Shown here: positions 38,110 through 61,188 of the stretch, in pieces
Layout of the letters: each line of letters starts with the position of its first letter
How positions within the stretch are numbered: position 1 is the first letter of the stretch
Assembly (NCBI GenBank): GCA_021432635.1
Contig: MU270066.1
Coordinates: forward strand, 62,001 to 126,000
DNA from: Thozetella sp. PMI_491
Lineage: Eukaryota > Ascomycota > Sordariomycetes > Chaetosphaeriales > Chaetosphaeriaceae
DNA length: 64,000 bases
Direction of reading: 5' to 3'
The notes under the pieces: model-generated
Databases searched by the model: none
Told to the model about the DNA's origin: nothing
What the model saw: the letters and a program-made list of their open reading frames with translations, nothing else
Program-made: the position numbers and the translations under genes

Positions 38110-41100
38110 ATGCGCTCATCTGGCCTCCTGCTAATGGGGGCCGCCCTAGTCGGCAGGGCGACGGGCAACGCCGACATGTATGACTGCAGCTACAATGCTG
38201 TGGGCGTCCCTGTCCCGGACAGCAACACGTTCAATCTACCCATGGAGAAAGGGCGCCAAGATCGGTGCTATCCCGTTTGTCTAGATGATCCGGTAAAATG
38301 TACCCAGAAGATCCCCGTCTGTTTCGACGTTCAGAACAGAGCCATTACTTTCGCATTCGGCGACGTGGACAACTATGGCTACATCTACAACAGCCTCACG
38401 CTCCTTCTCAAGGCTCAGAAACCGGCTGGCCCAAAGAAAACCTGGACCCTCAACAACAAGGCCTGCGTGACCAATTTGTTCAAGACAAGCATCACTTGCA
38501 CTCTGTCGTACACCGATCTCGTCGTTGGCGCTACTGACCTCACTGGTGCGCTCTTCATGTGCCCCAGTCAGGATAGTGAGGGCTGGATCTTCTCCTTCGA
38601 CATGAGCGTGGAGCTCAAGGACGGCGATGGGAATATCCAGGTGGCTAGGAGCAAACAATCCTGCACAGACTGGCCAGCCTGCCAGAACGTCAACAGTGCA
38701 ACATACTGGCAGCTGTCCTACCGCTGTACCAGATGCCGGGCCTCGGGGCTGATTCCGACGTCGAACCCCATCACAATCCCTGTTTCTGCCCCAACTCTGC
38801 CGCCTTTCGGCCGAGAGAGCACTTGCAAGGTCGTCACCACCACGATCGGCGGCAAGCCAACAACTTTCACCATCACCGGCCCGACCCATACAGCAACAAA
38901 AAAGGAGTACACCACCGTCACTCACTTGGCGACGCTTACTACGGAGATCCATGGAAAGACGCTCACTAAGGTATGGCGCTAGCCCCTCCCGCGTAGATGC
39001 CGCAATTCTAATTCATCTCAGATTGAAACGGTTACAGACAGGATTTCTGCGACCTACACGCAAAAGCTCACGACAAAGCAGTATGAGACGGTGACAACGC
39101 CAGTAACAATCAAGACAACCCTTCACGACGGCAAGTCAACTACAATCATTAGCACTGTAACGTCTCGCGTCCCAGTAACCGAGCAGCACACAACAACCGC
39201 GTACAAGACAATTGAGACGCCCGTCACTCATTATACGACACTCAGCAATGGAAAGCCTACGACTATTATCAGTACCATCACATCACGAGTTCCTATGGGC
39301 ACTGTGACAGAGAAGGCGGGAACGCTGACGCAGCAGCACACGACGACAGCTTACCGCACTGTCACTACTCCCGTGACGCACTATACAACGCTCAGCAATG
39401 GGAAGCCAACGACCATCATCAGCACTGTCACATCTCGTATTGCAGTTACGGAACCGCATACAACTACTGCTTACAAGACTATCGAGACGCCCGTGACCCA
39501 TTACACAACGCTCAGCAATGGCAAGCCCACGACCGTTATTAGCACCGTAACTTCTAAAGTCCCGGTCACCGAACACGTCACCACCACAGCTTACCGCACA
39601 GTCACAAGCATTGGCAGCTATACGACATACGTCAGCGGCAAGACCGTCACTCAAGTTACGACTCAGATCAGCAAGGTCCCGGAGTACTATACGACGACTG
39701 CCATATCCTTCCGGACTGTTGCCACCCCGGTTACGTTCACTACAACGAATCAGCAGGGCCACACCATCACCGCGGTATCGACGGTGACTTCCAAGGTCCC
39801 GTACACAGAGAGGTTTACAACAAAGGAGATCTCGACAGCGGTATCTACAGCGTATCGAACCTTTACCACAACAGATCGAGAAGGATCGACCATCACAAAA
39901 GTCAGCGCCTACACTACGCAAATTCCATACACCGAGAGGGTCACGACCACCGAGAAGTACACTACCAAGGAGATCACCACCGCAGTCTCCACGGCGTACC
40001 GCACATTCACAACAACCGATCGCCAGGGGTCCACTATAACTCAGATCAGTGCGTACACCACTCGCGTCCCCTATACCGAGAAATTCACGACTACGGAGCG
40101 ATACACAACCGCAACTGTGTCGACTGCATACCGCACGTTTACCACGACCAACCGGGAAGGCTCTACAATCACGCAGATCAGTGCCTATACCACCAAGATA
40201 CCATATACGGAAGTCCGATCCACTACGTTGGTTTCGACGCTGGTTTCCTTGCGCACCTTCACGACCACCGACCACCTTGGGCAGACGGTGACGCAGGTCA
40301 GTTCCTACACCACACGAGTTCCTTACACGGAGAGGTTCACGACAACCGAGAAGTTTACGAGTGTTGCGGTATCAACTGCTGTTTCTTACCGCACGTACAC
40401 CACAACGGACCGGCAAGGGTCAGTGGTCACCTCAGTGAGCACCTTTACCACGCGGGTTCCTTATACGACTACGGCACTGTCTACGGTCATCTCTTACAAA
40501 ACTTTCACGACAACGGATCACCTCGGCTCTACCGTCACCCAAGTCTCGCCGTACACAACCCGTATTCCGTACACAGAAAGCCTCCGTTTTACCACGACAG
40601 AAAAATACACCACCAGAGAGGTCTCAACCGCTGTCTCTACGGCGTATCGTACTTTCACCACAACAGACCGCCAGGGATCAACTATCACCCAAGTTTCGGC
40701 ATATCCTACGCGTGTCTCTTACACCGTCACGACCACGGCGGTCTCATATCGCACGGTCGAATCTCCTGTCACCTACACGACAGTTCGCAGTGGGCAGACA
40801 ATCTCGCAGATCTCTACCATCACGACTCGCATTCCCTATACCGAGTCATTCACTACGACGGCTCGCGAGACCTATTTCAGGACAACCTCCTATCCAGTCA
40901 CATACACTACCGTGCAAGGCGGCAGAACGACGACCGATATCTCCCTGGTTACTTCACGGGTGCCTGTCACAGAGAGGTACACTACTACCGAACGCGAGAC
41001 AGCCTGGCGTACGACCTCGTTCACTGTAACATACACTACCGTTCAGAACGGGAAGACAACTACTGAGGTGTCTCTGATTACTTCTCGCGTTGCGGTCACC

Positions 41101-42279
41101 GAGTACAAGACGACAACGGCGCGCGAGACCAAGACAGAGGTCTCCTACCGCACGGTGGCGACCCCAGTGACGTACACAACGGTGGAGAACGGACGTACGA
41201 CGACTCTCGTTAGCCTCGCCACGTCCAGGATTCCCTACACGGAGACATTCACAACTACAGCTTGGCGGACCACCTCGTTCCCAGTCACCTACACCACTGT
41301 CCAGAATGGGAGGACAACGACGCAGGTGTCGCTCATCACCTCGAGAATTCCCTTCACAGAGTCGTTTACTACCACTGCTAGAGAGACGCGAACCGAGGTG
41401 TGGTATCGCACGGTGCCGACTCCCGTCACATACACGACCGTCGAGAACGGCCGTACCACAACGCAGGTTAGCATCATCACGACGCGCATTCCCATCACCG
41501 AGACTGTCACGACGACCGCGCGGCAGACGGACTGGAGGACGACCTCATTCCCGGTTACGTATACGACGGTGCAAAATGGACGCACAACCACTGAGATATC
41601 GCTGGTCACAACGAGGATTCCGGTCACGACGACCGCGCGGGAGACAGAGACGCAAACCCAACGATTCTCTACTACGCTAGTTAGCACAATCGTAACTACG
41701 CGGGACGGCAAAGAAACCACTCTTTTCAGCACCTTGACTCGGACAGAGACTACACGCATCCCGACCACGTATTCGTATCCGACTACGATCGTGACCACGC
41801 GCGATGGACAGCCGACTACGCTTGTTTCCACGGTCAAGGTTCCCGTCACGACGACAGAGCGTCAGACGGAGACCTACAGGACCACGGTCGTGACCACGAA
41901 AGACGGCACCCCTACGACGTATCTGGCGACTTTGACTCGGACCCAGACGACTGATCGACCGACGACTGTTTATAGCGTCACGACTTACCTCACCACAATT
42001 GCGGGCACACCGGTTACGCAGTTCTCAACTATCACCCGGACGCAGACGACCGACAGGCCGACTACTATTCCAACAACACTGGTCAGCACCGTCACCACGA
42101 CGCGCGATGGGACGCCGGTCACGTATCTCTCTACGATCACGCGGACTACCGACCGGCCCACAACCGTGCTGAGCCTGCTGACGGTCACCACAACCCGCGA
42201 GGGCATTCCGACAACTTACATTAGCACCCTCAGACAGACAACCAGCATCTGTACTAGTTCTGCTTGGGGTCACCCGTAG
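38110..42279 (+). CDS. Giant Thr-rich repeat cell-surface protein
   Basis: Two exons (38110-38970, 39022-42279) give 1,372 residues; the frame upstream begins at a TTG, so the ATG at 38110 is used. A signal peptide (GLLLMGAALVGRATG) is followed by a Cys-rich globular domain of about 210 residues with a dozen or so cysteines and no family I recognise. The remaining 1,100 residues are Thr/Ser/Val repeats in four related classes. One runs around YTTLSNGKPTTIIST, one around YRTFTTTDRQGSTIT, one around VTYTTVQNGRTTT and one around TTRDGTPVTYLSTI. Dense O-mannosylation and an extended wall-spanning shape are expected, as in adhesins. No GPI signal or membrane helix is present at the C-terminus, so attachment would be non-covalent or through the Cys domain. 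Confidence 0.9.
39112..42240 (+). repeat. In-frame coding tandem repeats
   Basis: Over about 3.1 kb the exon consists of diverged units of roughly 35-50 codons. Four blocks can be told apart: about 39110-39660 (LSNGKPTT type), 39730-40730 (TTTDRQGST type), 40740-41640 (VQNGRTTT type) and 41650-42240 (TTRDGTP type). Neighbouring units inside a block are more alike than units of different blocks, which points to local duplication. Confidence 0.85.
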
Positions 42280-43186
42280 GCTAAAGGCAGATGAAAGGCT
42301 GAGTGACAATATGCGATCACTCTACTCTGTACTTCTCTTCTTATTTAACTTCGTTTATTGAAATTAGTAATTAATTAGCAGTACGAGACGTAAACATAGG
42401 CCGAGATGAGAGTAGAAAATCGAAAAGTGTCAGTCCATGGAAGTTATGATGGTCTGCATCGAGGCCCATATCCCTTCGTGCTGTTTCTGTGTCGAATGTC
42501 TTGGGAAAACCCCCGGGGCGGGAGGTCTTCACAGGCGAAGACCGCGATAATGGTAGGCGCAAAGAAGAGCCAGGTGGTTCGCTCGCCCCATAATATGATA
42601 AGAACAGCTATATATTATGGTCTTATGGTTTCTACCAAGCTCGCCACCCTTTGCTTTGCCAAAGTCTCGGTCTGATATGCTCGCTAGGCCATTGGCTATC
42701 TACGATAGCTGGAATGCTTGCCCCTGATAGTGTCTAAGCCAAGCCTCCCGGCGCGGACCTAGCTCTGGTTCGGGAGCTTGGGCCCATAGGAACGCCCGAA
42801 TCACCGCCAGGAACCACAACCACATGCCGTTGTGGGGTTTAGCTTCGCTAGGATTCAACGGCAGGGGTGCTCCGGGCCAAGACTCGAGGAATTAAAAAAC
42901 GGTGGGGCTTATACCGAAACTGCGCATTAACATTCTTGGCGATGTTACGCCGATCAATGATATCGGGTTCTTGAGCACGCGGCCGCCTATCTGAGCTCGC
43001 CAGTCCAAAGCTAGTTACCGACATAGACTTGGCATGCACGAGTGCTCCGTAACCGTAAACCTTCCCGGGAGGCCCGCTGCACCTCACGATACATAAAGAA
43101 CATGTGCCTTGGGTCGCATCGCACCCACCCCAGGCGGAGACTCGCATCGTAGGGTGTCGTTTGCTTCCCAACTTTGGCTCGTCGTC
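42280..43186. other. Intergenic, repeat protein to nucleotidase
   Basis: This 0.9 kb spacer is AT-rich at its left end, as expected for a 3' untranslated region, and shows no gene. The right end is the nucleotidase promoter. Confidence 0.45.
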
Positions 43187-44922
43187 ATGTTCTCTTTGAG
43201 ACGGTCCATTGCTGCAGCCCTCTGCCTGGGCTCCCCGCTTGTCGCGGGGGTAGCCGCGTCCGTGGCTAAGGAGGATGTACTCGTGAGCCAGCGCAAGCTC
43301 AGCAAGCGCTTTGTGGACGAGAACGGCAACTACAACATCTCGTTCTACCACATCAACGACGTCCACGCCCACCTGGACCAGTTCTCGTCCTCCGGCACCG
43401 ACTGCTCGCGCCCCGAGAGGGGCTGCTTCGGAGGATATGCCCGCGTCAAGACGGTGCTGGACCAGACCCGTCCTTCGCACCAGGACAGCCTGCTCCTCAA
43501 CGTTGGAGATGAGTTCCAGGGAACCATGTTCTTCTCGTTCTATGGCGGTGAGAAGATCGCCGAGACGCTCAACCAGATGGGCTTTGACGCCATGACCCTC
43601 GGCAACCACGAGTTTGATCGTGGCGATGAGCACCTCGGCCAGTTCCTGCAGAACTTGACTTTCCCCATCGTCAGCGCCAACATCGTCTCGGACAACGAGA
43701 AGCTGAACAAGACGATCAAGCCTTATCATATCTTCGAGAAGCACCAGCTGGCCCTCATTGGCGTCACTACCGAATCTACCAAGACCATCTCGTCACCCGG
43801 CAAAGGCACTACGTTCAGCAACCCCATCGAGGCTGTGCAGAACACCATCGACTATATCAAGGCCAACGAGAAGGGTGTGACGAGGATCGCGGCCATCACG
43901 CACATTGGCTACGAGGAGGACCAGAAACTGGCCCAGGCCACGACCGGTCTGCACCTGATCATGGGCGGCCACTCGCACACGCCCCTGGGCGACTTCGAGG
44001 GCGCCCAGGGCAAGTACCCAACAATTGTCAACAACAAGGACGGTGATGAGGTCTTCATCGTAACGGCGTACCGCTGGGGCGAGTATCTCGGCTATATTGA
44101 CGTCACCTATGACCCCTCTGGAAAGATTCTCGCGTACCACGGCGCCCCGATCCATCTGACCAACACCACGGAGCAGGACACGGAGCTCCAAGCCGAGATC
44201 GCTGAGTGGAGGAAGCCATTCGAGGAGTTCTCAGCCCAGGTGATCGGCACCAGCAACGTCGTGCTGGATCAGACCCTCTGCCAAACGCAGGAGTGCCTAC
44301 TTGGCGACTTCATGACCGAGTGAGTTCCAGACCCCCAGCATGTGCCCTTAAGAAGCCGCCTGGCTAACCGAGCCAAAGCGCGATGCTGACCTACCGGCAC
44401 AACTCCTCCGACGCCGCACATTTCGCCATCATGAACGCCGGCGGCATCCGCGCTACCATCGATGACGGCGACATCACGCGCGGCGAGGTGCTCACTGCGT
44501 TCCCCTTCAGCAACGCCGTCGTCGAGGTGACCATGAGCGGCGAGCATCTCTGGCAGACCCTTGAGGGCCTCGTCAGCAAGGTCAACCAGGCGAACGGTGT
44601 CGCCGTTACATCCTTCTTCCAGGTGAGCAAGGGCATCCAGGTCAAGTACAACCCGGACCTGGCCGTCGGCTCACGCCTCGTGTCGGTCCGCATCGGCGGT
44701 AAGCCCCTGGACCGCGCGGCCGAGTACACGGTGGTCACTGTCGACTTCCTCGCTTCGGGCGGCGACAACATCTTCAGCCCAGCTTTCGAGAATGTCGTCG
44801 CACTCAACACCTTGGACGAGGTGCTGGTCAACTACATCCAGACCGAGAGTCCCGTGAACATCCAGCTGGAGGGCCGGATCGCCATCACGAACCGGACAGC
44901 CTGCCGTAAGCGCCGTCTTTGA
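43187..44922 (+). CDS. Secreted 5'-nucleotidase / metallophosphatase
   Basis: Two exons (43187-44319, 44379-44922) give 558 residues. The frame opens at a TTG (43109); the ATG at 43187 begins a signal peptide (RRSIAAALCLGSPLVAGVAAS), and a KR site before FVDENG may mark pro-peptide removal. The N-terminal domain has the dimetal motifs YHINDVHAH, GDEFQGT, GNHEFD and GGHSHTP; the C-terminal domain has the substrate-specificity motifs NAGGIRA and FPFSNAVVEV. This is the standard UshA/CD73-type two-domain layout. It would release phosphate from extracellular nucleotides such as AMP. The C-terminus (CRKRRL) lacks a GPI signal, so the enzyme is probably soluble or wall-bound. Confidence 0.94.
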
Positions 44923-46509
44923 GCTCCCGAATGTTCACTCTCGCGGACTTGTTAGCCAAGCCAGCGTGGAGAACAGCTTCTAGGCGATAGCGTAGCCGAG
45001 AGGATGCTAAGTCTCCCATTTATCATGGAAAATAAAATTCTAGTGTAATGTTCAATAAGGGGCTTGATCTCGAGAGTCTAGGCTACTCCACGATAAAGAT
45101 GATATGTACAAAAGTATATTTTCATGTGGCATGCAACGCGATGTCGTTATTGAGTAAATGATGCAACTATAGTGGCTGTTTATCGTACGTAGGTAGCATT
45201 GAGGTTTCTATTTGGCTGAGTGCAGCGAAATTCTGGAACTTCCGGCCAAGCTGGAACATGATGCTCTAGACGTTCCTTACGACGATCTATATCTCTACTG
45301 TTGGGAATTACCCTTCCTTTATGAGCATCCCGAGGGTTTCCTTCATATCCTTGATATCGCCGCTCTCGATATACCATGCTTTGCGGAAGGATTCTGGATC
45401 GCCAAAGGTCTTGCGAATGAACTTCTTGTCGGCCATTATGATTCTTAGCTTTCGTCACTGCCGTGAGTAGTCTCGTTGGAACCCTCAATGCTCTTTATCA
45501 CAGAATGGTCGGGAAGGCGTGGAGCAACGACGGGCTCTTCAGTGATCGAAGTTAGTCTTCTTATGATGCTGCTTCTGTCTGCTCTACTGCCGTTCTTGAA
45601 ACCCAGTCTCCAGTCACCGAAAGTAACACCTTCCTGGGAAAACAGCCTGTTGGGTCCAGCCGGGCTGGGAACCCGGCTGGTAACGTTGTCAACGACTTTT
45701 GGAGCATTTGTGATCTGCTGGGTAGCAACCCTGGCTTCAGTGAGAGCAACAATTTTCAAGTGAATTAGTTTTAGTAACCCAGGAACGTCCCACAATGAAA
45801 ACTTGGTAAGCAGGTGTCGCCGAAAGTGTCCTTTGGCTCAGTGTGTACTTTTTTTAATGACGCTTTCAGTTGATGACTGGACTGATACAGCAATGTCATG
45901 GAAAATTACCACAGGAATCGGAATAGAGACGGGAATGCGTGATAGATAGCTGCCTACGGAACCCTGTGAAGGCTGCCAGTGTGTTTTTGCTTCGACTCCC
46001 AAGCAAGAAGGCATCGTCTCGGCCCACTAGCGCTGCCTAAGCTCATTAGCGGTATTTCGGTAGTTTAGCGCTGCCCCGGCTTATTAGTGCTGCCCCGGCT
46101 TATATGCTCTGTCTCGGCACAGTAGCTCTGTCTCGGTTCTGTAGCTCCGCCTCGGTACCTGGGTAGTTTGTGCCAAACCCACGCTCTCGGATCAAGGTAT
46201 CTTGGGAGAGTTCAAGGACAGAATAGGTGGAAAATGCAACTGCAGGGCTTGCCGCTGCCCCTTGTTCAAACCCATTGGTTTCGATTCTTTGAGCCAAATT
46301 CTGCTCTAGTGAGTGCTAGACTATACTACACGCCTCCTTGCTTATACCGACGATACTGCCTTCATCCGACCTCCGGCATCCAAACCGCCAAGCTGTAGCG
46401 CGACTAGTTAATATAAGCTCAGCGGAAAAAACAACAACACTACAAGGCTTTTCTCAGCAGCTAGCTTGCAGGTAGCTCTTTATTCCGATCTACATGACTT
46501 AAGGCATTT
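44923..46509. other. AT-rich intergenic region with possible gene remnants
   Basis: About 1.6 kb of AT-richer DNA. Minus-strand frames at 45445-45795 (116 codons) and a 42-codon ATG frame near 45437-45309 look weakly protein-like but are separated by stops and show no family. A 19 bp tandem repeat occupies 46019-46151 and is listed separately. Confidence 0.45.
46019..46151. repeat. 19-bp degenerate tandem repeat, seven units
   Basis: Seven units of exactly 19 bp, most beginning TCGG or CCGG and carrying TAGC/GCTC near the middle and TGCC/TGTC at the end; for example 46076-46094 is CCGGCTTATTAGTGCTGCC. An eighth, weak unit may extend to 46170. The array lies about 360 bp beyond the UstYa-like gene's stop codon. 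Confidence 0.85.
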
Positions 46510-47583
46510 CTATGATCCGAGGTCATCTCCAATCCGTGATATGGAGAGTTCTGGCGGAATCTGTTTAGCTCCAGGTGGTTGCGGTACACCCCCTGGTTCT
46601 GTGAAAACCTTCGTGACAGCTACTTCCTTCTGCCATTCTAATAATGCAGCATGATTCATGCACTGCCGTTTGATGTTGAAGTCAGGATAAGGCCTTTCCT
46701 GGGTCTCCATCCACTGGTGGCTTATCAAGTCGAGACTCGGCATGCATGTCAGCGCTTGTAAGAGGATGTCCAGGCAGTGCGAAATGTGTGCCTGATGTCG
46801 TAAAGGCATGGTTGATCTAGTTTGGCAGAATGATATTAGCTCGACCGGTTCTAATAGTGAGTATACTTGCGAAAGGCATAGGCTTACAGGTTCGTATATC
46901 TATGCGCATAATAGTGGTCGAAGTAGATGTACTGTCGCAGCTGGTTCAAGCAGTGCAGCTGATGCTGAGAGTCCAGCTGCACCATGTACATATCCTGCCC
47001 TAGGCCCCAGTCTTCAGGGAACTTAACACCCAAATCGGTATCTTTTCCGAGTTTGCGCATTGCGTCTTCGTTTATGGCAATGTACTGGATATCAGATATT
47101 TCATCCCATGCTTTGTCAACCTCGTCGCTTGGCGGCTGTCGATAGATGATATGGGGGTCGTAATCGTCGAACAATGTCCCGCGGACCGTCATTGTCTGAA
47201 ACTCAATCGGTATCGAACCTAATATCGGGCCTGGTCCAATCACACCATTAGCTATCATTTTATGTTTGAATGCCGGATGATAGGGCATACTGTAAGGTGA
47301 GAGCTGTTCGATCACATGCCTCGGGCGAAGCATCCAACCCCTCCAGGCGAGGAAAAGCACCACCCATGCTCCCAAGAAGAAGACGATATTCAGGACCAAG
47401 AGACACCCGAGCTTCGATGCCTGCGAGCGAGGAAGAGGACGTGACTGTGCCTACCGGAAAGATGGTTGAGTTCGGTGACGTCCAGATGGATTGAGCTTCA
47501 CGCACCTTCTCTCTAGTATCGTCTTCGTCCACATCCTGGCTCGGCACACTCTGGTAGATGCCTTTCATCGTCCTGAGGAGCAT
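46510..47583 (-). CDS. UstYa/DUF3328-family oxidase-like protein
   Basis: Three exons (47583-47506, 47420-46888, 46816-46510) give 305 residues; an alternative in-frame ATG is at 47568. One N-terminal helix (VLNIVFFLGAWVVLFLAW) anchors a luminal domain. Two copies of the family's HxxHC motif are present: HQLHC (about residues 179-183) and HISHC (about 214-218), 30 residues apart, as in UstYa/UstYb. Family members oxidise or cyclise peptides in fungal RiPP pathways (ustiloxin, asperipin, victorin) and also act in some non-ribosomal pathways, in the secretory route. The gene is divergent from a small secreted peptide gene, sharing 557 bp of promoter. The C-terminal RQCMNHAALLEWQ segment also fits the family. 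No tyrosinase-like partner is in the window. Confidence 0.9.
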
Positions 47584-48140
47584 AAAGGTTTTGGAGCTCT
47601 GTCATGCCCATTCAGGAGCTTTTGCTGCTACCAAAAGGAAAAGGCGAAAAACAGGTGAGCGAGCAGCCTTCCTAGAGATGGGGGGAAAAGTCCCAGAATT
47701 CACAGCTCCTGCCAAATCAGAATCAGTATACGAGCCGAGCGTGGATTACTTCCACAAAGGACCGAAAGTACGACTCAAACACTCAAACAGCAGGAGATAT
47801 GTTACACATACCTGATTTATCCTTTCCGGTGCATAGCAGCTATGCCAAGACAGGGAGGTCACAGAATCCTACCGGAGTTAAATAAGCGTGAGGTCACGAA
47901 AGTCATAGCGCCTGCCAATTACATCATGAATACCTAGTTTCAGGTATAATCCTTTTTGACCCCAGCTATCCCCTTTCGTCAAGCGAATACATGCAGCTCG
48001 GTTAACGGCTCACTCTATAGACAGCTAGACGGAAGTATAAAGTAACCATTCGGTGCCAAGGAGCTCCATTGACCGATGAGTATCAGCCCACCAACCTCCT
48101 ATCTATCCATCACAAGTACCAGCCACATCATTGTGCCAAT
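47584..48140. promoter_or_regulatory. Shared divergent promoter, UstYa-like gene / small secreted peptide
   Basis: The only sequence between the two divergent starts. A TATAAA at 48036-48041 lies 105 bp before the peptide ATG. An upstream ATG at 48076 opens a 33-codon frame that overlaps the peptide start in another frame and stops at 48174; it could lower translation if the transcript begins before it. Confidence 0.55.
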
Positions 48141-48347
48141 ATGCGCTTCTCCATTATCGCCGGCGCTGTCCTAGCGTTCGCGACCACTGCTGCCTCGGCC
48201 CCTACCCCTGCATCGGTCCAGTTATATGGCCACCTACCCAACTTCGTTGCCGATTCTGAGACTGAGGCAAATGCTGCCAGCGCTTCCAAGCTTGTTGCTA
48301 AAGACCCCGCTGGAATCTACAAGTATAAACTGGCTATTGACGACTAG
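48141..48347 (+). CDS. Small secreted peptide, candidate precursor
   Basis: Single exon of 68 codons. A strong signal peptide (FSIIAGAVLAFATTAASA) with a likely cut after residue 20 leaves a 48-residue acidic product that ends GIYKYKLAIDD. It has no cysteines, so it is not a disulphide-rich effector, and no KR dibasic KEX2 sites or repeated cores, unlike classical dikaritin precursors. Three tyrosines fall in LYGHL and IYKYK. A TATA box 105 bp upstream supports expression. Its position divergent from a UstYa-family gene suggests it could be that enzyme's substrate, with the Tyr-containing C-terminus as the modified part; this is inference. It could instead be an unrelated small secreted protein. 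Confidence 0.7.
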   Translation: MRFSIIAGAVLAFATTAASAPTPASVQLYGHLPNFVADSETEANAASASKLVAKDPAGIYKYKLAIDD

Positions 48348-49062: not shown

Positions 49063-49344
49063 ATGCTCCTGCCATATTCAATACAAAAAGGTCCACCTCA
49101 GTTGAACACGACGACGATGACGACGACGAGTATTTCGCGAACAGTGACCACTAACTCCATGAGTGCAAAACCGGCTTCGACGGGGACAGGCTTTACTCAA
49201 ACATACACGGTGAAGCCAGGGGATTTCTGCTTTGCTATTTGGACCGAGTTCAACCTTACTTGAGCACAAGCCTTGGCCCTGAACCCAACCCTCGATGAAA
49301 ATTGTAACCTCCGGGTCGGCCAGGTGCTGTATATCGCGGACTAG
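49063..49344 (+). pseudogene. LysM-domain gene interrupted by an in-frame stop
   Basis: From the ATG at 49063 the frame reads a Ser/Thr-rich linker (TTTMTTTSISRTVTT) and the first half of a LysM domain (YTVKPGDFCFAIWTEFNLT), then meets TGA at 49261-49263. In the same frame, beyond the stop, the second half of the domain follows (ALALNP, CNLRVGQVLYI) up to a natural stop at 49342-49344. The domain is therefore whole except for one stop codon. LysM proteins bind chitin fragments; in plant-associated fungi secreted ones can shield the wall. There is no signal peptide here, so the piece looks like the C-terminal part of a formerly larger protein. A GT...AG intron that would remove the stop is not evident. 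Confidence 0.7.
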
Positions 49345-49439: not shown

Positions 49440-52400
49440 TCACAGTAGTGAGACTGATCGTCCGCTTTTGTATCTCTGCACCAGTCGCTGTCTCATCCTC
49501 TCCCCAAGGTCCATCAGACTCTCGGCGTTAAGTATCTCTAGTATGGTTAGCATCACACCAAACTTCTGCCTGAACCAGTGACGGAGCTCAACGCTGACGA
49601 GCGAGTCGACTCCGATGTCTCTCAAGGGCGCGTTGTAATCCACCTCATCGACACCGCGCATCAGGAACCCAAATAGCGCTGCGCCGATTTCCCTAGCCAA
49701 AAATGCCACCGTCTCTTTTCTCTCCAACACCAGCGGGCTCACGACACAACTAGCAAGAAATTCCTTCAGTGTCGCGTTTTCGGGCGTCTTTGCTTCTTCG
49801 TGGTTGGCGCCTTCGGCAGCCTCGAAGAACAGCCCCCTCGAGTCTTTCTTCCAGCTTGTGATTCCTGGTCCTTTTGCGCTGAAACCGATGGCTATCTGGC
49901 CATGACTCACGTATCCCTGCAATTCATCGCGCTCATCCTCCATCTTTGGACGGTACGGCCCAATCATTACTTCAAGCGCCTCCAGGACATCCCTCTCCCG
50001 CAGCGCATGTAGGGTCTCAGCTCGCAAGGCGTCGAGCCGGTGCGGCTCGCGGGCAAGGATGCCGATGCCATGCACTGCACCGATGTCGAGGGCCGAGCAG
50101 GGGAGGCCTAGAGAGTGCCGATACTGGACGAATGCGTCGAGAAAGGTATTTGCAGCTGCATAATTTGCCTGGCCGACCAGGCCACAAAGTCCGGAGAGAG
50201 AGCTGAAGAGAAAGAAGAAGTCGAGCGGTTCTGGCTGATCCTGCAGAGCGTAGTGGAGATTCCATGCTCCGTGAACTTTTGTGGTTATAACGTCGTGCCA
50301 TTGGGAGAAGTTCATTTGGGTAAAGGTTTGGTCCTGCATCTAGGTCAATACGATGCGTGCCATTGACAGAGCCGTACAAGTGCGAGGGCCAGTGGCGTGT
50401 ATGCTCTAACTCACCCTTAAAACCGCGGCGGCGTGGAAGACACCTGCGATCGGCACTTTTGATGAAGATATCATTCTTCTTACATCGTCGATAGCACCGA
50501 CATCGCCCCGGATGATTTGGACGGTGCAGTCTTGCAAAGCCAACTCGTGGACCAAGTCATGGTTGCTGTCTATGCCATTGTCCGCAGATCTAGAAAAGAA
50601 TATCAGATGTCTAGCCCCTTTTTCCACAAGGAATCTGGCAGTTGATTGGCCGAGGCCGCCGAGACCACCAACAAGGAGGTAGGCCCGGTCAGGGCGCAGT
50701 CGTGTCTCTCGGGGCGCCGGTTGGGCCGTTAGATTGCCTGGATTATCCGGCATAACAACTACCGCATCGTCATTGCGTTTGGAATTATGCAGATTCCGGA
50801 ACGCGTCGAAAGCCTCGGATGCATCGAATATCGTAACGGGACGGATAAGGCGGACGAGGCCCCGAACATACAATTCGAATGCTCGAGAAACTAGACTGAT
50901 TCCAGCTTGTCAGCGTCCAAGCTGGTACTTGCGGAGCTGTCGGTGTCCTGTGAACCTACCTCTTCCAAATTATCGGGCGTTGGAAACATAGCTCATCAAA
51001 ATCGATATTCGCGAACCAGCGATTGCACCCAAAGTCGCAATCCAAAGTAGCCTTGTCGTCCGGGTGTCTCTTTCCGATTTGTACAAGAGTCCCTAGCGGC
51101 CCAACACACTCCCAATAGGTGCGCAATTCGTCCCGCGCGGGGGGGCAATAGAGCACAACATCTACTCCCTGACCATTAGTAGCGTCTAGGAGGGAGCCAG
51201 AGAGGAAATCACCCGTCCCGCTTAGAATGTGATGCTGAGGCACCTCCAGAACGGACGCAAAATATTTAACCTCGTCTTCGTTTCGAGCTACACAATAGAT
51301 CTTTTGGGAATCCCAGTTAATATTAGTCGTGCTGAGACAGCTTAATGGGTCAAGAAGACAAAGTTGACGTACCTCAGCTCTCGCCAGCTTAGCGAGCTGT
51401 ATCGCAGCCACACTTTTTGGACTGCATCCTCCGTCAACCAATACAGACTAAAGATGTGGTTAGCATCAATGTTTCCTGGTCTTACTTAGGGCTAAGCCAC
51501 GCACATATCCTTCTCGGAGTTTCACTACTTCCTCGAAGGCATAAATTGCTGCTCCATACGAAGTTGGTATTGTCACAGCTTGAACAAAAGTTAGGGCTTC
51601 CGGGATGATGATGCACGCTGTCTCGGGCACTGTGACAAGAGTAGAGAGAGGCGCGCGGACGTTGAAAGCCACTCTGTCCCCGATCCTCAGATCGTGGACG
51701 TGCGGGCCAACGTCACAGACAATACCGGTGCCTGCTAGCCCCGGCCGCTGTTTGCCTTGGCTAGGATGTCTGATGACTCGGGCAATATCCTGGAGCTACT
51801 GGATTTTAGATGCCGTGGAAGTTAGAATGTCTTTATGTCCGGGCAACTTACCTCGCTGCACATCTGCATGGCCCTAACGTCAATATTGACACAGTTCCCG
51901 GTCAAGGGCGACTGGTTTGTCTCTACCCAATGCAACAATTGTATTGCACCGGGCCTCTCCACTGCGACCTCCCTGGAGGCATTCTGGTTTCTTTCCCCCA
52001 ACAGCATCTCGGAGATCTTAACCTTGTGAAATCTGCCAATCTTAACTAACCCATTGTGCAACACATATTCGCTGTCTCGGTCCATTTCTCGAGATAATTT
52101 GCGATTGGCAAAGGTAGCCAGCATATCAGCGGTGGCCGCCCAGCCATTCTTGTCAAAGTGCTCGAGCTCCATGGTCACGAGGTCGATCGAATTCTCCCTG
52201 CGAAGTGTGCGCGCCGCGCCCAAGATGAGCGAAAAGTTGGGGTCTTTGCAATCAATTTGGGAGGCACCTGTGACCCAGAGCATCCCGCCGTCTTGAACCG
52301 AAAGCAGGGACTGCTTGAAAGCAGCGTATTCAGACGCTTGCATGCTGTATAAATATGCCCCCTCGAGATCCAGGAGACACAGCGTGGGCCCGGTTTGGGG

Positions 52401-55400
52401 CAGCTCTTGTCCGATTATAAAAAATTCCAGGTTAAAGCCCCGGGCTGTCAAAAGATCTGTAGCTTCTGAGACAACTGGGTGGAGCGAGTCCCGGCAGAGT
52501 ACATTGACTTTTGTAACTGCTGCCAGCCTTGTGGCCAGTCTGGTAATAATGGCGCCACCATCTCTTTCAAGGAATATAGCGTCGGCGCCATTGAAACCAG
52601 CCTCACTGAGACTCGTACGCCATATCTCCTTTTCTTGCAGCCTCACTAGATGGCCTTCTTCGATGAAGTCTTCTTGAAAGGAGTGAGTCCCGTTAGTGAG
52701 CGGGGCGTCTCGATAAATGAGTAGGCGTCCACTGGGTTGAAGCAACCGTCCAAGGTTGGTCAACATTGGGACGGCATCTTTCGGTTTAGCGATATGCCCG
52801 GAGAAGGCAACGAGGTCGAAAGACTTCTCTTTCAGCCCCTGAGAAACTAGATCATTAGAAGGATCCAAGATGGTATAAGTCACATCCTGAAAGCCTTTCA
52901 GTTGTGACCTGGCGGTGGCCAAATCATCCGGCGAGCTCCTTGTATACACATACTTGGAGTAAGTGCGTTCTCCGCGCGCAGAGACAAGAGACTGCAAAGT
53001 AAAGCTGGAGATGTCTTTCGTATCTGAGCCAACTTCTAGAACGTGAAGACTTGGCTTCTTGTTCCCTAAAAGGTCGAGGAACTCGGATGAATGCTGGAGG
53101 TGAGTTGCATTGATGAAGTCAACATCGGGCTTCCATTCTAGGGTAGCGCCAGCATGGGGATCATAGTCGACTGGCGGGAAGCTACTCGAAAGTGGGGAGA
53201 CTTCTAGGCTCTTGATCTGAAATGCAACCTTCCCATTGGAGACTCCAGTGATATTGCTACTGGTGCCTCGGTTGGGATGTTTGGACGCCTCGGCAATCAC
53301 TTGAATCGGCCCGTCCACACCCTCAACTTGCATTGCTTCGATATATCTGGGTGCGGAGGTAGTGTTGAAATTCCTTTCCAACCCGTAGCAGTCAGCTACC
53401 ATGCATAAGTGCACACTTGAATCAAGAGCTGTGGGGTGGATCGAATAGGACGACGTTCGCTCGCACGATTCGACCGCTGTCCCTGTTGCCTTCTTTTCTG
53501 TCACGTGAGAAGAGATGCTCGAGAGTCCTCGGAATGCCGCTCCGTAACTGAGCCCATATCTTCTCCATGTATCATAAAACGAGTCTGACGAGGCCTTACG
53601 GGGTAGCGCCTGGATGATGGGAAGCGGCATTTCGAATTGGTGATCACCTCGGCATTGTCCTGAAACATTTCTTGTCCAGGTTTCCCCTCTCAAGGTAGAG
53701 ATAGAGAAGTCGTACCAGACCGATTTGCCGTCTGATCCTATTGTTTCCTTGGGGCTGAGAGTAGTGACGAGCTCAATAGGCTCATCGTTGAGGACGAGGG
53801 CTTCTAAGAAGTTGACTTTTCGAGCCGAGTAGCCAACAGATCCTGACAGTTGTCTCATTGCCTCTCCAACCATGGATATATATCCCGACCATGGGAAGAC
53901 GGTGTCACCATCAACCACGTGGTCTCGCAGCCAGGGGACATCTGAAACTCGCAATCTGCATCTCCATACTGGATCAGAATCCGAGGACTCCAAGATGCGA
54001 GTGCCAAGCAACTCGTGGTGATCAAATTTCTTAAATCTCCAAGCGCTTGAAATTCTGCTCTCGGCCCAGTATTCCGCATCGTAGTGCCATGGATAGGTTG
54101 GAAGGTCCGTAAGGAGTTGTCCTTTGGGGTTAACCAAGCCAATCTCTATGCTGTGGCCCGCCAGCCACAGCTGGCCCGCCGTTTTGAGAACACATACCAG
54201 ACCGTCCTCGCCCCGGACTAGCGTAGGGATGTATGGCGCTGTCTTGCCTTCCGCTTGAACAGTCTGCCTCAGCGGCCCAGCTAGTGCGGCGTGTGGCCCA
54301 ATTTCCACGAATATTGGAGACGGAATATCGGCTAACACCGCCCGGACCGCCGTATCGAAGAGCACCGGAGATACGAGGTTCCGGGCCCAGTAGTCTGACG
54401 ACAAATCATGGTGAACAGTGCCTGTCACCGATGAATAGAACGGGACAGTGGGCCTCCGTGCATGGATTTTGCCGGCCAGGCGAGCTTCGTAGTTCGGCTT
54501 GACTGCTTGCATGTGGTCTGCGCGAATGTCAGTATGACAGAAGTATTTTGAAATTGGCGAGAGAGCAACGAACGAGAGTGATAGCCACATTCAACATGCA
54601 GTGCTCGGACAAATACGTCCGGATATTGTGCCTTGATTTGCTCCATCACAGACTTGAGGACCTCCTTCTCGCCCGACAAGGTAACACTCAATGGAGAGTT
54701 CTCGCAGCCGATGATTACGCCAGGTTGAAGGTGTTTTTGAACTCGCGTTCTCCCCAGTCCAACCGCTGCCATTCCCCCACTATGGGCGGCTTTGAGGTAT
54801 GGTGTGATCTGACCCCTATAGTACGCCAAAAGAAACGCTTCCTCGGCAGTGATAGCACCGCTTGCGTATGCTGCTGCTGTTTCACCAGAAGAGTGGCCCA
54901 CAACGGCGGCTGGAGTTATGTTCCAAGAGTGAAGCAGATCCACAAGAGAGATCTGGATTGCGGCGAGACATGGCTGGGAGAATTCAGCCTCATAGAGGCG
55001 GCTTTTGCTCTTAGGGGCTAGTAGTTCAGCTAGATAACTGTCAGCCTAATCTTGGCTTCCTTTTCGATCAAGGTGACTTGAACTGAACTCACAGGTCAGT
55101 GACCATGATGGAGGGTCAGGTAGCATAGCAAGGATGCTCTCTAGGCCGTCAATTCGTTGTCGGACTAAGGGATGATGCTCGTATAGTTCCTTTCCCATCT
55201 GCGCCCATTGAGCCCCTTGTCCTGTAAATACCCATACCATACTTTCAGGGACCGGTGCGGGTTTAGATGTTGAGGAAAGCTCGAAAGGGGTTTGGCCATC
55301 GACAATGGAGAAAGCACGGTGAGAGTGAACTTTTCGTCTTGCCCCTAAAGTGTAAGCCAAGTCACTGAATCTGCCAGGAGCTTTTGCAAGATAGCTTTCC

Positions 55401-57177
55401 GTATTTCTGGCCACCTTCTGGAGGGTGTTTGTGTGCGTTGCAGAAAAAAAGAGCAAGCGTGGCTCTGGAGCCATCTCCGGGGGGATAAGGCCGCTTTGAG
55501 GGACTGAGGGGACTCCAAAACAGGATGCAGATTCTAATAGTACCTTTTCACTTGGTCAACTCTTTCTCCTCTCATGCAAATATCAAAATATGGAGACTAA
55601 CATGCGCATTTGTGCCACCGATACCGAAAGAATTCACGGAAACCCTCTCGAAGCGGTCTTGAGGCCAGGGTAAAGGTTTCGTGGGGACAGTGAGTTTCGC
55701 CTCGTTCCACGGGACTGCAAGTGAAGTTAAAATTAGTTTTTAAGTTGATATACTCAAGAAGCCATGGCTAGGCTTACTTCTTGGATTTGGAGTTTTGAAG
55801 TTGATGTTGGGCGGAATAGTCGAGTTTTCCAAGGCAAGCACCATCTTGATGACGCTGGAAATCCCAGAAGCCCCTTCACCGTGGCCAATATTAGGTTTTA
55901 CCTTTGGTTCCAGAAGTTAGCATTTCGTGGTGCACATATTCATAGAAGACAAATGTGTACCGATCCGATGTAAATACCATGTTGGCCCCATACACTAGCA
56001 ACTGCTTGGGCTTCCAGGGGGTCGCCGACCTTTCTCGCGGTTAGTTCTCCCTGTACCCAAATATTACAATTTTGAAATTTTGCATCTGACGTACCACAGT
56101 TCCCGTCCCGTGGCATTCTACCATTGCCGTCTTCGATAAATCTTCGATGCCTGCAATACGATGGCCCATACGCATCAGCCGCTCGTGGCTCTTGGGATCA
56201 GGGGCCGTCATCCCTGCGGTTTTTCCATCGCTGCCGAGGCAGGTCGACCGAATAACAGCACGGATCGGGTCTCCATCGCGAATTGCATTCGACAGACGCT
56301 TGATGTATATGGCCGATATGCCCTCGCCCCTCGTATAGCCGTCGGCGTCCGCGTCGAAGCTTTTGCAGGAACCGGTAGGGGATAGAACTCCTTGCTCGGT
56401 CATGGTTGCTGTAGACCCTGGGGATTGTATAAGGTTCACGCCTCCAACTACAGCCGCCACGCAGTTTCGGCTGTGGAGATCCTGGCACGCCATATGCAGC
56501 GCAACTAAGGAAGACGAACAGGCCGTTCGCGTAACCAAGCTGGAACTCTATTAGCTAAAATACGAAACTGATACTAGTTCCTTTGGAGGAAATCAGAAGT
56601 ACCTGGGCCCTTTAAGGTCGAACTCGTACGATGTCCGGTTGGCGATTATGTAGTCGCCAAAGACATCAGCCCGAATCGGTTGGAGGTGTTGGTCGTCTCG
56701 CAGCTTCAACTCCTTCCAATCATCACCCATAGCGCCCACATAGACTCCAATCTCCTTTCCTCTCCAGTCCGTTTCACCTGCGCTCTCAAAGGCTTCGTAT
56801 ACGACTTCGAGAAACAGCCGTTGTTGTGGGTCCATCAGCTCTGCCTCTTGCTTCCCGAAGGACCAGAAGCTCGAGTCGACGTGGGCTAAGTTCACATCGT
56901 CGAGAAAATACCCGACCTTCGAGGACACATGTGAGACTCTTTCTGGACCGTACCAAGCGTCCACGTTGTATCGACTTTTGGGCACAGGGCATAGGCCACT
57001 CTTCCCGTTGACAAGTAGATCCCAATACGAGGAAGCGTCGTGAACGCTACCTGGCAGTCTCATCCCCATACCAATTATGGCAATCGGCTCAAACGACTGT
57101 CCGGGCATGGTCGCCGGCTGAAAGTCCCTCTCTGCAGTGTGATGATTATTCGTATGAGTAGCTTGATGTTTTTCCAT
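49440..57177 (-). CDS. Reducing type I polyketide synthase, KS-AT-DH-(MT)-(ER)-KR-ACP
   Basis: Thirteen exons give 2,328 residues in one frame: 57177-56603, 56539-56095, 56029-55961, 55901-55778, 55714-55602, 55543-55093, 55029-54574, 54517-51852, 51795-51505, 51447-51373, 51300-50960, 50895-50415 and 50339-49440. The frame opens at a TTG (57213), but the first ATG is 57177. KS (about 28-445) has Cys199 in RTACSSS and histidines in VECHGTGT and [12 protein letters not shown] (470-870) has Ser639 in GHSSGE. DH (910-1210) has His944 in [13 protein letters not shown] and an Asp in HPTALDSS. The MT core is short with a changed SAM loop (LEVGSDTKD). The ER (about 1590-1870) has [13 protein letters not shown] where GGVG is expected. 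KR (1900-2150) has VGGLGGLG and Tyr2089. ACP Ser is about 2275 (GVDSL). No thioesterase is present. The product is an iteratively made reduced chain. Confidence 0.95.
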
Positions 57178-58121
57178 AGCCAAGGGAACACCGCTGACCT
57201 CCTTTTTCGCCAAACTAGGTTTATTATTGCTAGATCAGAGGTTTTACTGAGGTAATTTGTGAGGCCGGAGTTGGAATAACAGACAGACGAAGTAAGCCTT
57301 AGCCAGATAAGACCTCTCTTGGGACGCTCCTAATGAAACTGCCTACTTTAGCCTGGCACTTCGATAGTCCGATGACAGGTTAGGCTCTGCTCTGCCGAGG
57401 GAGCGAATCAGGTAGGAAGCACTTCCGGAAATAGAGGCTAGCTGAGGTTCGCGCGCCCACGTAGCACATATTGGATATATATATCGTACTTCCTGTACTT
57501 TCCTTTGGTCTGGAGGCCAAATGAAACCCTACACGGCCTTAGCCATCGCTGGTGGTTGGCCATGTAAGCCTTAGCCCCAATTGTACTCCAAGACACGGCA
57601 TAGCGCCACTTCTCCAAGCACCAGTAGTTTCGCATATTTCCCACCATTGATTGTCCTAGCGTGAATCGGCTGTCTAACCCCAAGCTACTGCTGACAGGTG
57701 ACGTAAACTGCATATGCTTGGCCCCCAGTTTGACTACATATACGCATACGAAGCTAGCTAAAATTGAAAATTTGATCGATTTGTCAGGAGCATGGAGCGC
57801 TGAGAGTACACTGCCAGGTTAGGCTACAGCTGACTTACGCTATGCCCCGAACGGAAGACTTCCAAGTGGCTCGGGGGCCGAGGGAGTTGTTAGCCTGCTG
57901 CGCAAAGGAAAAGGGGGAAAGGATGGCTTGGAGCCAGGAGAATCCACCACCGCTGATTCCACATCTATCGCTAGAACAGTTCGTTTGGATTAGCAAAGAA
58001 ATAGAAAAAGAAAAAAGAGGGAGAACCTCATACGGTACAAAATTCTGCTTTATTCGGTTGACTCTGACTACCATTTGAAAAAGTGTCCTTTTTGTCAAAG
58101 GCAGTGTCTCCTCAAATTTCG
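57178..58121. promoter_or_regulatory. Divergent promoter region, PKS / acyl ligase
   Basis: About 0.94 kb shared by the two divergent starts. The 11-mer CAGGTTAGGCT occurs twice in the same orientation, at 57376-57386 and 57815-57825, and could be a cluster regulator site. A purine-rich tract lies just before the ligase start. No gene is seen inside. Confidence 0.5.
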
Positions 58122-59747
58122 ATGCTCGGGATGGCCACAATCCCTCGAATGGACGGTTTTGTCCTCGGACACCAGAGACGTGTTGAATCAGTCGTAGAAC
58201 CTCTACAGATCGATCCGGTGCCAGTCTTTATTCGACCGACAACAATGACAAACGGCCCTAGAGATGCAAACGCCCTCTTGTCAGATCCGATCGCGCTACA
58301 TTCCGTGTTACACCCCGAAAGACTCGTCGCGATAGATCTAGCAACCCACCGGCGATGGTCCTACCGAGAACTGCACAACGACATCCAAAAGGCCATGTCA
58401 GTCCTTGCTAGAATAGGTGTCAATCGTGGTGACAGGGTGGCAGCGGTGTGTCAGAATAGTGTCTGGCTGGTTGTCCTACAGCAGGCTCTCATGCGGCTCG
58501 GGGCCATCTTTGTGCCCCTTAACTGGCGACTAGCAGAGCGAGAACTCTCCGAGTTGTTAGCTGACTGCGCCGCCTCCATCGTCTATACGGATAGCTCCGT
58601 ATGCTCTAGCCAGCTGTTAGACAACCGCACACTTGATATTGTGGCTTTTGGCGCGGCAGTGGATGCAGCCGAACCAGCAGAGAGTGTATCCACGACTGAG
58701 CTCACCACCACTTGCATGATCCTTTACACCTCAGGAACATGCGGCGCGCCTAAAGGCGTCTTAGTGACGCCCCAATTCCTCCTCGCTACTGGTATCAACT
58801 TTCAAGTCCTCGGCGAGGTCAATTCACGCAGCGTTTTTCTTTGTGATTGCCCCATGTTCCATGTCATCGGCATAGCAACCTCCATATGGCCCGAGCTCTA
58901 CTGCGGCGGCGCTTTCGTCGTCTCCCCCAAGTTCGACGCCGGCCTAACAAACGAGCGTCTGGCTGATGCAGTGCTGGGAATCACACACTACTTCTGCGTT
59001 CCCCAGATGGCGGATGCGCTGTCTCGTGCCCCTGGCTTTGACCCTTCGCGGTGGAAGAAGCTCAGGGCGCTGTTTACGGGTGGCGCGCCAAATCCCCCAG
59101 CCCGTATCAACTCGTGGCTTGACCGAGGTATCCGCATGGTGGATGGCTATGGTATGACAGAGACGGGCACAACGCTTGGTATGCCGCTTTCCGAGGAGTT
59201 GATCCGTGCCAAGGCCGGGTCTGTAGGGCAGCCAGGACCTATGACCGCGATTCGGATTGTGGACGAGTCCGGTCGAGATGTGCCGGCAGGGGTGCCTGGA
59301 GAAATTTTGATTTCGGGATTGAACGTCACCAGCGGGTATTGGAACCGGCCAGAGGAGAGGAGCCGCAGCTTTACGGAAGATGGGTGGCTACGAACAGGGG
59401 ATATCGGAAAGCTTGATAGCGACGGCTTCGTCTTCGTCATTGATCGACGGAAGGACACGTTCATTTCAGGCGGAGAGAATGTATACCCAGCAGAGGTGGA
59501 GGCAGCTCTGTTAGAGCATCCGAGTGTGCGTGAATCTGCTGTCGTCGGAGTGCCAGACGACGCTTGGGGGGAGGTCGGTCGTGCGTTCATTGTTCCTGTT
59601 TGGGGCTGCCAACCCGGCCAGGACGAACTTTCGCGTCACTGCCGCTTGTGCATTGCTGCCTTCAAGGTACCCAAGGAGTTTGTTCTTGTAGACAGCCTGC
59701 CACGAACTGCATCTGGAAAGGTCATGAAACAGATGCTGAGAATCTAA
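58122..59747 (+). CDS. AMP-forming acyl-CoA synthetase/ligase
   Basis: Single exon, 541 residues from the first ATG (the frame opens earlier at a GTG, 58083); another possible start is ATG 58131. All adenylate-forming motifs are present: the P-loop-like A3 motif as YTSGTCGAPKG (Cys replaces the usual Thr), FHVIG, DGYGMTETG, the A7/A8 region WLRTGDIGKLDSDG and RRKDTFISGGENVYP, and the terminal lysine in PRTASGKVMKQ. It matches medium-chain/4-coumarate CoA-ligase-like enzymes that join a carboxylate to CoA with ATP. No PTS1 peroxisomal tripeptide is seen (it ends MLRI). Divergent placement next to the reducing PKS suggests that it activates a starter acid or the released polyketide acid. Confidence 0.93.
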   Translation: MLGMATIPRMDGFVLGHQRRVESVVEPLQIDPVPVFIRPTTMTNGPRDANALLSDPIALHSVLHPERLVAIDLATHRRWSYRELHNDIQKAMSVLARIGVNRGDRVAAVCQNSVWLVVLQQALMRLGAIFVPLNWRLAERELSELLADCAASIVYTDSSVCSSQLLDNRTLDIVAFGAAVDAAEPAESVSTTELTTTCMILYTSGTCGAPKGVLVTPQFLLATGINFQVLGEVNSRSVFLCDCPMFHVIGIATSIWPELYCGGAFVVSPKFDAGLTNERLADAVLGITHYFCVPQMADALSRAPGFDPSRWKKLRALFTGGAPNPPARINSWLDRGIRMVDGYGMTETGTTLGMPLSEELIRAKAGSVGQPGPMTAIRIVDESGRDVPAGVPGEILISGLNVTSGYWNRPEERSRSFTEDGWLRTGDIGKLDSDGFVFVIDRRKDTFISGGENVYPAEVEAALLEHPSVRESAVVGVPDDAWGEVGRAFIVPVWGCQPGQDELSRHCRLCIAAFKVPKEFVLVDSLPRTASGKVMKQMLRI

Positions 59748-60594
59748 AATAGGGCATATCCAACGGCGCATTAGCAACAGGTTAAACTCGCGGTATACTG
59801 ACCCACCGAGCTCGCGAGAATTTGTATCGCTATTCGCCTTGCCCTTCGACTCGCGTGCTCCGACAGGTTCCGGAACGCAGCGAAGCCAGTGGTATACGCG
59901 CAAGACTTACAACTTGCCCCACACGGTCAGACAGTCGTCTTTAACTGATCTTTCAGTCTGTGCTCGCCTTCGCCTTGGCCCAATAACATACCTCCTTCTG
60001 TCCGTTGGCTGTGCCACTACCTCCCTCCGTAGTGGCTCCACGAGCTTAGAAAGCGGGCCTTTGAAGAGTGAAAACTAAAAGTCAAAACTATAGAGTCAAG
60101 AAGTAGCTGGACACGCAGGGCGTTAGACGGTTCCGGGGAGTACAAGTCTAGTAGAGCGCAATGTAATGTCACCGGAATCCGGCCTTTGTATAGGCTTTGT
60201 ACATGCATCAAGCTAACGAATACCATTTTTCCGCCGGCGCTGCTCGTGTTGCCCTGCGGTGAAACCAGAGTATGCAACCCTACTCAGCCAGAAGTCAGAA
60301 ATAAGGCACGACCCGAAGTACCCAGATAGTGTCTTAGTGGAGGCAGTCAGGCCGAGAGGTACAGACGGATTACTCATTTTAACATGTAAGATGACGAAAT
60401 GTCTAGAAGTGGCCCAGTGATGAAAGAAATGGTCCGCCAATCCCTTCCATTGATTTGGGCCGTGCCATTCTCCCAGCACCTTTTCCGGCTGTCCCGGCGC
60501 GTCTGTCGACTCGGACCATTCTCCAGCCCACAATACGGCAGCATCTCACACCTTGCAACCCGTCAACGCGGTACTTGTCTATCAGCCATTTATC
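59748..60594. other. Intergenic, ligase to cupin
   Basis: About 0.85 kb with no coding pattern. It should hold the ligase 3' end and the cupin gene promoter. Confidence 0.45.
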
Positions 60595-61188
60595 ATGTAT
60601 TTTCTTGGTTCAATCTGCCTTCTTGCTTCACTAATTTGTAGCACCTCTAGTCTGTCGCCACGCTATAGTCACGGCGGACCGGTACCGATCGACAAGCGCT
60701 CCGCCCAGGAAGTCATTACAAAGCTCGGCCTCGCCCCTAATGTCGAGAAAGGCTACTATATAGAAACATTCCGAGACTCATACACTATCAACAATCGGTC
60801 TGCCAGCACCGGGATCTACTACCTCCTAGAAGGCTCCGCTGGCCATTCCTATTGGCACCGAGTCGACTCCGTCGAGATGTGGCACTACTACGCGGGTGCA
60901 CCGCTAAATCTGTCCCTATCGTTCGACGACGGAAAACCGGTGCGAAAAGTTACGCTAGGCCCCGACGTGTTCAATGGCCAGCGGCCACAGTTCGCGATCG
61001 CCTCTTGGCAGTGGCAGCGTGCACAGAGCCTAGGCGACTGGACCCTGGTTGGGACGACCGGTAGGAAGAGCAATAATGAGAGGCGTTAAGACTAGTCCGC
61101 TAATTTCAGAGCAACAGTCGCTCCAGGGTTTGACGAAAGTGGCTTCGAGCTCGCTGCACCGGACTGGCAGCCCAGATCTGATAGTTAG
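60595..61188 (+). CDS. Secreted cupin of the DUF985 family
   Basis: Two exons (60595-61060, 61112-61188) give 180 residues. The frame opens at a TTG (60553), but the ATG at 60595 begins a signal peptide (YFLGSICLLASLICSTS), so I use it. The rest is a single-domain cupin_5/DUF985 fold: GYYIETFRDS, a metal-side histidine pair in GHSYWHRVDSVEMWHYYAG, and the C-terminal TVAPGFDESGFELA that appears only after splicing. The 3' splice site has two AGs two bases apart (TTTCAGAG); the second keeps the family frame. DUF985 proteins are beta-barrels of unknown activity and are usually cytosolic, so a leader peptide is uncommon. It is downstream of the acyl ligase on the same strand. Confidence 0.85.

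Follow-up and report, generated by a model that had tools for sequence, protein, structure and literature searches.

The locus described here is a head-to-head pair of genes, one for a UstYa-family protein and one for a short secreted-type peptide, in a window of 64,000 nucleotides (the whole stretch of DNA that was analysed) from Thozetella sp. PMI_491. The features of the pair and its surroundings are as follows.

43097-44919: 5'-nucleotidase-like gene in two ORFs, upstream neighbour (Pfam)
46510..47583, minus strand: UstYa-family gene (DUF3328, PF11807), from Pfam matches, splice enumeration, and the genome search
47568 (or 47583)-47506, 47450-46888, and 46816-46510, minus strand: UstYa exons, preferred among the listed splice models
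46950..46964, minus strand, start 46964: first HxxHC motif of UstYa (HQLHC), from a motif scan
46774..46788, minus strand, start 46788: second HxxHC motif of UstYa (HISHC), from a motif scan
47584..48140: divergent intergenic region of 557 bp, from the ORF positions
48141..48347, plus strand: ORF of the 68-aa secreted-type peptide, a putative precursor, from the ORF list and the repeat and splice scans
48141..48200, plus strand: signal-peptide-like N terminus, roughly residues 1-19 or 1-20, from a crude scorer, with the cleavage site placed by eye
49063-49263, plus strand: ORF with a LysM-like end, between the peptide and the polyketide synthase (Pfam)
49440..57234, minus strand: polyketide synthase (PKS) of the highly reducing (HR) type, its 3' end facing the peptide
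58068..59744, plus strand: AMP-binding enzyme adjoining the PKS (Pfam)
60454-61086: Cupin_5 protein (Pfam)

The minus-strand gene of the pair is a real member of the UstYa/DUF3328 family with an open gene model. PF11807 matches two of its exons, at 46887-47450 (minus strand; E 5.3e-28, 98.8 bits) and at 46510-46809 (minus strand; E 1.3e-18, 68.2 bits), both above the gathering cut-off of 25 bits for this family, and the sequence-only reading of a UstYa-type protein with two HxxHC motifs is borne out by these matches together with the motifs listed above. The preferred model from intron enumeration comprises three exons, remains open, and encodes 310 aa; by eye, its product has a short N terminus followed by a single hydrophobic stretch of membrane type. 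The two coding regions are separated by 572 bp if the likelier UstYa start codon (47568) is used and by 557 bp from the upstream one (47583), and a TATAAA box is found at 48036 (+), 105 bp ahead of the peptide start codon, so that the gap, the opposite strands, and the TATA signal noted earlier are all present. A candidate for a shared motif, CGGAGTTAAA, was dropped: its only copies in the window are one in the divergent region and an inverted one at 48808, and two copies are too few. Two short tandem repeats with a 19-bp period lie at 46065-46155, between the 5'-nucleotidase-like gene and the UstYa gene.

The signal-peptide-like start of the 68-residue ORF scores 4.76 with a crude scorer (thresholds used: 3.8, 4.2, and 4.5), and after the likely cleavage the mature peptide would begin with Ala-Pro or Pro. 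The peptide has no Cys and no Arg after residue 2, ends in IYKYKLAIDD, and carries three Tyr in its mature part, one of them in the N-terminal half of that part. No tandem repeats were found in the peptide region by the repeat scans, and KR, RR, and KK are all absent from the 68 residues; the repeated cores and KEX2 sites that mark dikaritins are thus both missing, as the sequence-only reading of a cysteine-free secreted peptide with neither had it. For internal similarity between the two parts of the mature peptide, p is 0.05. Enumeration under the donor, branch, and acceptor motifs used gave no spliced model for the peptide. The codon log-odds of the peptide frame is 0.183, against 0.047 or less in the other five frames, which is a weak test: 7 of 59 comparison ORFs (partly genic DNA) score above the peptide, and exon 3 of the UstYa gene itself scores -0.067.

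Relatives of the peptide were sought in several collections. Its own genome returned only the peptide itself, the viral contigs gave 61 pattern matches with 0 confirmed, and there was no match among PDB sequences or in Pfam. NCBIfam gave no match either, and as it missed the UstYa exons too, this result has little weight. The DNA of the UstYa-peptide pair had no match in the plasmid collection. Since its own genome is the sole fungal genome that was searched, the lack of relatives is no proof that the peptide is novel.

The search of this genome (72.3 Mb, 157 contigs) with PF11807 yielded at least 149 matches with 150 of 203 candidates scored, and merging by hand gave at least 125 (about 125) gene-level positions at 90 or more loci. 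Compared with an average of about 6.4 DUF3328 genes per strain (9399 genes in 1461 strains; PMC7329392, section 7), this is a very large expansion. On the contig of the window (C52), no other UstYa gene is among the PF11807 matches listed, and no second UstYa-type HxxHC pair was seen in the 94 kb read (the window and stretches L010-L012).

Sixteen UstYa neighbourhoods besides the window were followed (C84a, C84b, C2, C18a, C76, C10, C15a, C63, C18b, C20 at 738k, C15b, C26, C28, C7, C88, and C9), two of which, C84a and C84b, are 4.5 kb apart. The stretches were chosen around the best-scoring UstYa genes, with three smaller ones added for likeness to the window gene and for their layout, and none was chosen for a precursor. 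Three-fourths of these neighbourhoods (12/16; stretches L013-L016, L019, L020, L022+L023, L024-L027, and L042) contain a repeat-type precursor, in each case divergent from a UstYa gene at a distance of about 0.9-2.1 kb. Nine of the precursors were flagged by the repeat scan (C84a, C84b, C2, C18a, C15a, C63, C26, C28, and C7), and three further ones are found at C20 and C15b, both recognised in frame translations, and at C9. The C7 precursor is divergent from one UstYa gene and codirectional with a second. At C2, C18a, C28, and C20 the scan did not identify the signal-peptide exon, which at C20 is visible in the frame translations. The repeat units are mostly separated by KR, but the repeat frames of C18a and C26 hold no KR or RR and that of C63 holds one, so that the lack of a KEX2 site has some precedent in this genome. 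Unusual separators between the repeat units were observed at C18a, C26, C63, and C9, and introns between the repeats in the C20 and C15b precursors.

At two other UstYa genes this slot is taken by an unrepeated peptide, C76 (73-residue spliced model with one KR, the one model found) and C18b (C18:713k; 46-residue spliced model, the longer of two), and more weakly at C10, where a 44-residue unrepeated candidate falls below the scan threshold and a spliced model was not found. The two firmer ones, both of secreted type and with Cys, are located at about 7007-7280 of stretch L017 and about 6921-7140 of stretch L021, and would be companions of the window peptide in a single-core type. The divergent slot at C88 holds no peptide. 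Nor was a real peptide found in the divergent slot of nine further anchors (three at C36, two at C20:731-735k, two at C20:385k, and two at C30), of which one at C20:731-735k is known by its motifs only; a fourth UstYa gene of C36, at the stretch edge, fell outside the scan. Judged from the sequence, their sole divergent match is the membrane segment of a facing UstYa gene, and there is one same-strand signal-peptide match, at C20:735k. In stretches L043 and L044 (C20:385k and C30:161k), two UstYa genes face each other head to head and no peptide was seen in between; these pairs may represent another type of pathway.

The mature window peptide was compared with 15 precursor stretches of its own genome, and none of the similarities was significant (lowest uncorrected p 0.028 among 15 tests). 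Together with the Tyr in the N-terminal half, this leaves unsupported the proposals of a core in the C-terminal IYKYKLAIDD and of a likeness between this tail and known cores.

The occupancy of slots of up to 2.5 kb was counted with the crude signal-peptide scorer for 17 UstYa genes, including that of the window, and 51 control slots. With a threshold of 4.2, a signal-peptide-like ORF was found in the divergent upstream slot of 10 of 17 genes against 3 of 51 control slots (1/17 each for same-strand upstream, downstream same, and downstream opposite). The respective counts are 10/17 and 7/51 with a threshold of 3.8 (1, 3, and 3 in the three control slots) and 9/17 and 3/51 with 4.5 (1 in each). 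The same-strand upstream match is the C7 precursor as viewed from the other UstYa gene there. Without the window, the counts at 4.2 are 9/16 and 3/48 (Fisher p 6e-5) for genes outside the nine anchors at C36, C20, and C30, whose inclusion would lower the divergent share. When only unrepeated peptides are considered, again with the window left out, the enrichment is not significant (2/16 vs. 2/48, p 0.26). The divergent slot of UstYa genes is clearly the precursor slot in the sample followed, and the window peptide occupies this slot; a separate single-core type of precursor in the genome is suggested.

These counts bear on the explanation that the ORF merely encodes a small secreted protein of an ordinary kind, such as an effector or a signal, which acts without modification and has the UstYa gene as an accidental neighbour with its substrate elsewhere. 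A peptide with no repeats, no KEX2 sites, and no homologue found in its own genome would suit this explanation, against which stand the slot statistics and the scan of the surrounding 94 kb of C52, where no repeat-type precursor was flagged that could serve as the substrate instead. The latter absence is not firm, since the C20 and C15b precursors, which are split by introns, escaped the repeat scan. We regard the ordinary secreted protein as quite improbable. The only frames flagged in these 94 kb are a Thr/Ser-rich one and its antisense frames; the former, at 38983-42276 of the window (+), is an open frame of 1098 codons with Thr/Ser-rich repeats and no Pfam match.

Repeat arrays are able to contract, and most of the precursors seen in this genome have repeats. 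The window peptide could accordingly be what is left of a decayed locus, the leader and tail of a precursor that lost the repeats between its cut sites and yields no product. Some debris may indeed be present in the neighbourhood: the ORF that starts 0.7 kb downstream of the peptide matches, at its end, the first 19 of the 43 LysM positions and stops there, and is perhaps a gene remnant, and the piece that follows it, to 49341, has no Pfam match (49063-49341 was searched in two pieces). No relic of a repeat array was recognised, however, as the plus strand between the peptide stop and 49062 contains neither residual repeats nor a stretch with more than two dibasic pairs. The open peptide ORF, the open splice model of the UstYa gene, and the unrepeated peptides in the same slot at other UstYa genes also speak against decay, which we consider improbable.

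The relationship of the window UstYa to its paralogues was examined for 17 proteins of the same genome, with which it is 25-39% identical. The nearest ones by identity, C2 (38.9%) and C63 (36.9%), both adjoin repeat-type precursors. In the FastTree phylogeny the window protein joins a clade of C63, C76b, C20, C88, C84a, and C15a at a node with a support of just 0.155, and in the IQ-TREE phylogeny it is among branches with weak bootstrap values and its position is not resolved; the tree omits more than 100 of the genome's UstYa genes. A placement within the precursor-linked clade was dropped, since the support of 0.93 applies to that clade with the window gene excluded.

The neighbouring PKS offers a further explanation, in which UstYa would serve its polyketide cluster as a tailoring oxidase, and the peptide, a small secreted protein unrelated to either, would lie in between by chance. 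The synthase has KS, AT, DH, KR, and ACP domains above the cut-off, along with MT and ER-like matches below it; its 3' end is reached 1.1 kb past the peptide stop, and the AMP-binding enzyme follows behind it. DUF3328 proteins are noted in clusters for polyketides and NRPs (PMC12048977, section 22), a signal-peptide-like ORF is encountered in control slots as well (3/51), and the tree does not tie the window UstYa to the precursor-linked clade. Against this explanation, the peptide is located where precursors sit elsewhere in the genome, and UstYa genes are not clearly enriched near KS genes: of the 90 UstYa loci listed, 4 have a KS gene within 20 kb (2.5 expected) and 2 within 12 kb (1.5 expected), counted on lists merged by hand and with a naive uniform expectation. 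Proximity of UstYa and PKS genes was accordingly rejected as a genome-wide rule, the count within 20 kb being near chance. We regard the polyketide explanation as unlikely, although it deserves attention.

The reading that we put forward is that the pair forms a two-gene ribosomal-peptide module, with the peptide as a single-core, KEX2-free substrate of the UstYa protein. Because the tree does not place the window UstYa, our confidence in this reading was lowered slightly, to the point where its chances appear evenly balanced; weighing all the evidence, a UstYa-modified ribosomal peptide is narrowly favoured. The signal sequence would direct the 68-residue peptide into the secretory route, and the UstYa protein, anchored in the membrane and a copper oxidase by its family, would oxidise side chains within the one mature segment, which is about 48 residues long. 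The oxidation might consist of a cross-link, a desaturation, or a hydroxylation, with one of the three Tyr as a possible site. Since there is neither a repeat array nor a dibasic site, signal peptidase would suffice for the maturation of the peptide, perhaps along with some trimming by further proteases. The idea of a UstYa-modified, single-core ribosomal peptide, already part of the sequence-only reading, is now better supported, by the head-to-head repeat precursors in 12 of 16 neighbourhoods and by the unrepeated peptides at two (a third weakly); the C-terminal core that went with it finds no support. An extension of the module, in which the adjacent PKS would make an acyl chain, the AMP-binding enzyme would activate it, and the oxidised single-core peptide would be joined to it as a fungal lipidated RiPP, has gene proximity as its one basis. 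We hold it to be highly improbable.

If single-core, KEX2-free peptides are real UstYa substrates, searches based on repeats and KEX2 sites miss a part of the class, and the head-to-head UstYa slot would allow precursors to be found independently of repeats. With its about 125 gene-level UstYa matches, this genome would be well suited to testing the idea.

Among known systems, the dikaritins are KEP products cyclised by UstYa homologues, with ustiloxin, asperipin-2a, phomopsin, epichloecyclin, and victorin listed in PMC10512285. The window pair resembles them in having a UstYa-family gene close to a secreted precursor-like ORF (572 bp, divergent), and the asperipin-2a pathway in having a single UstYa gene (PMC7329392, section 7). 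Unlike in dikaritins, the peptide is devoid of repeated cores and KEX2 sites, and no tyrosinase was recognised near the window gene among the ORFs put through Pfam (a part of all ORFs), nor a second UstYa gene among the matches listed. Both repeated cores and KEX2 sites having been looked for and not found, we do not assign the pair to the dikaritins. The peptide likewise shares with the KEX2-processed repeat proteins (KEPs) a signal-peptide-like N terminus and an adjoining DUF3328 gene, but it is not a repeat protein and so falls outside their definition; the frequency of DUF3328 genes is highest in the position adjoining a KEP gene, and for 1758 of 7878 KEPs the nearest 15 genes include one (PMC7329392, section 7).

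The two HxxHC motifs and the single membrane-type stretch, the latter judged by eye in the window protein, recall CctR of the cyclochlorotine pathway, a dimeric binuclear copper enzyme with an HxxHC(x)nHxxHC arrangement and a single N-terminal transmembrane helix (PMC12435403). CctR differs in acting on a nonribosomal peptide, and no condensation domain is among the matches listed for contig C52. For cluster 55 of Trichoderma reesei, a putative RiPP precursor has been described in which one core is predicted, at a KK site (PMC7099791, section 10); it is comparable to the window peptide as a putative single-core precursor, but it has the KK site and a sulfatase gene beside it, and no UstYa gene is named in that section.

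The usual mark of a dikaritin precursor is a series of repeated cores bounded by KEX2 sites, as in the working definition of a Venturia survey, which combines a signal peptide, repeats, and kexin sites (PMC9632046). Among the papers listed, none points to an unrepeated UstYa substrate in its title or the beginning of its abstract. The lichen RiPP clans R1 and R2 (PMC12048977) differ from the window pair in that genes with signal peptides and Kex2 sites, though without repeats, are mentioned for them, whereas here a single defined, Kex2-free peptide sits in the slot where precursors are found elsewhere in the genome. In common with the window, these clans have UstY homologues without a repeated precursor, and their authors raise a single core peptide as one possibility (section 22).
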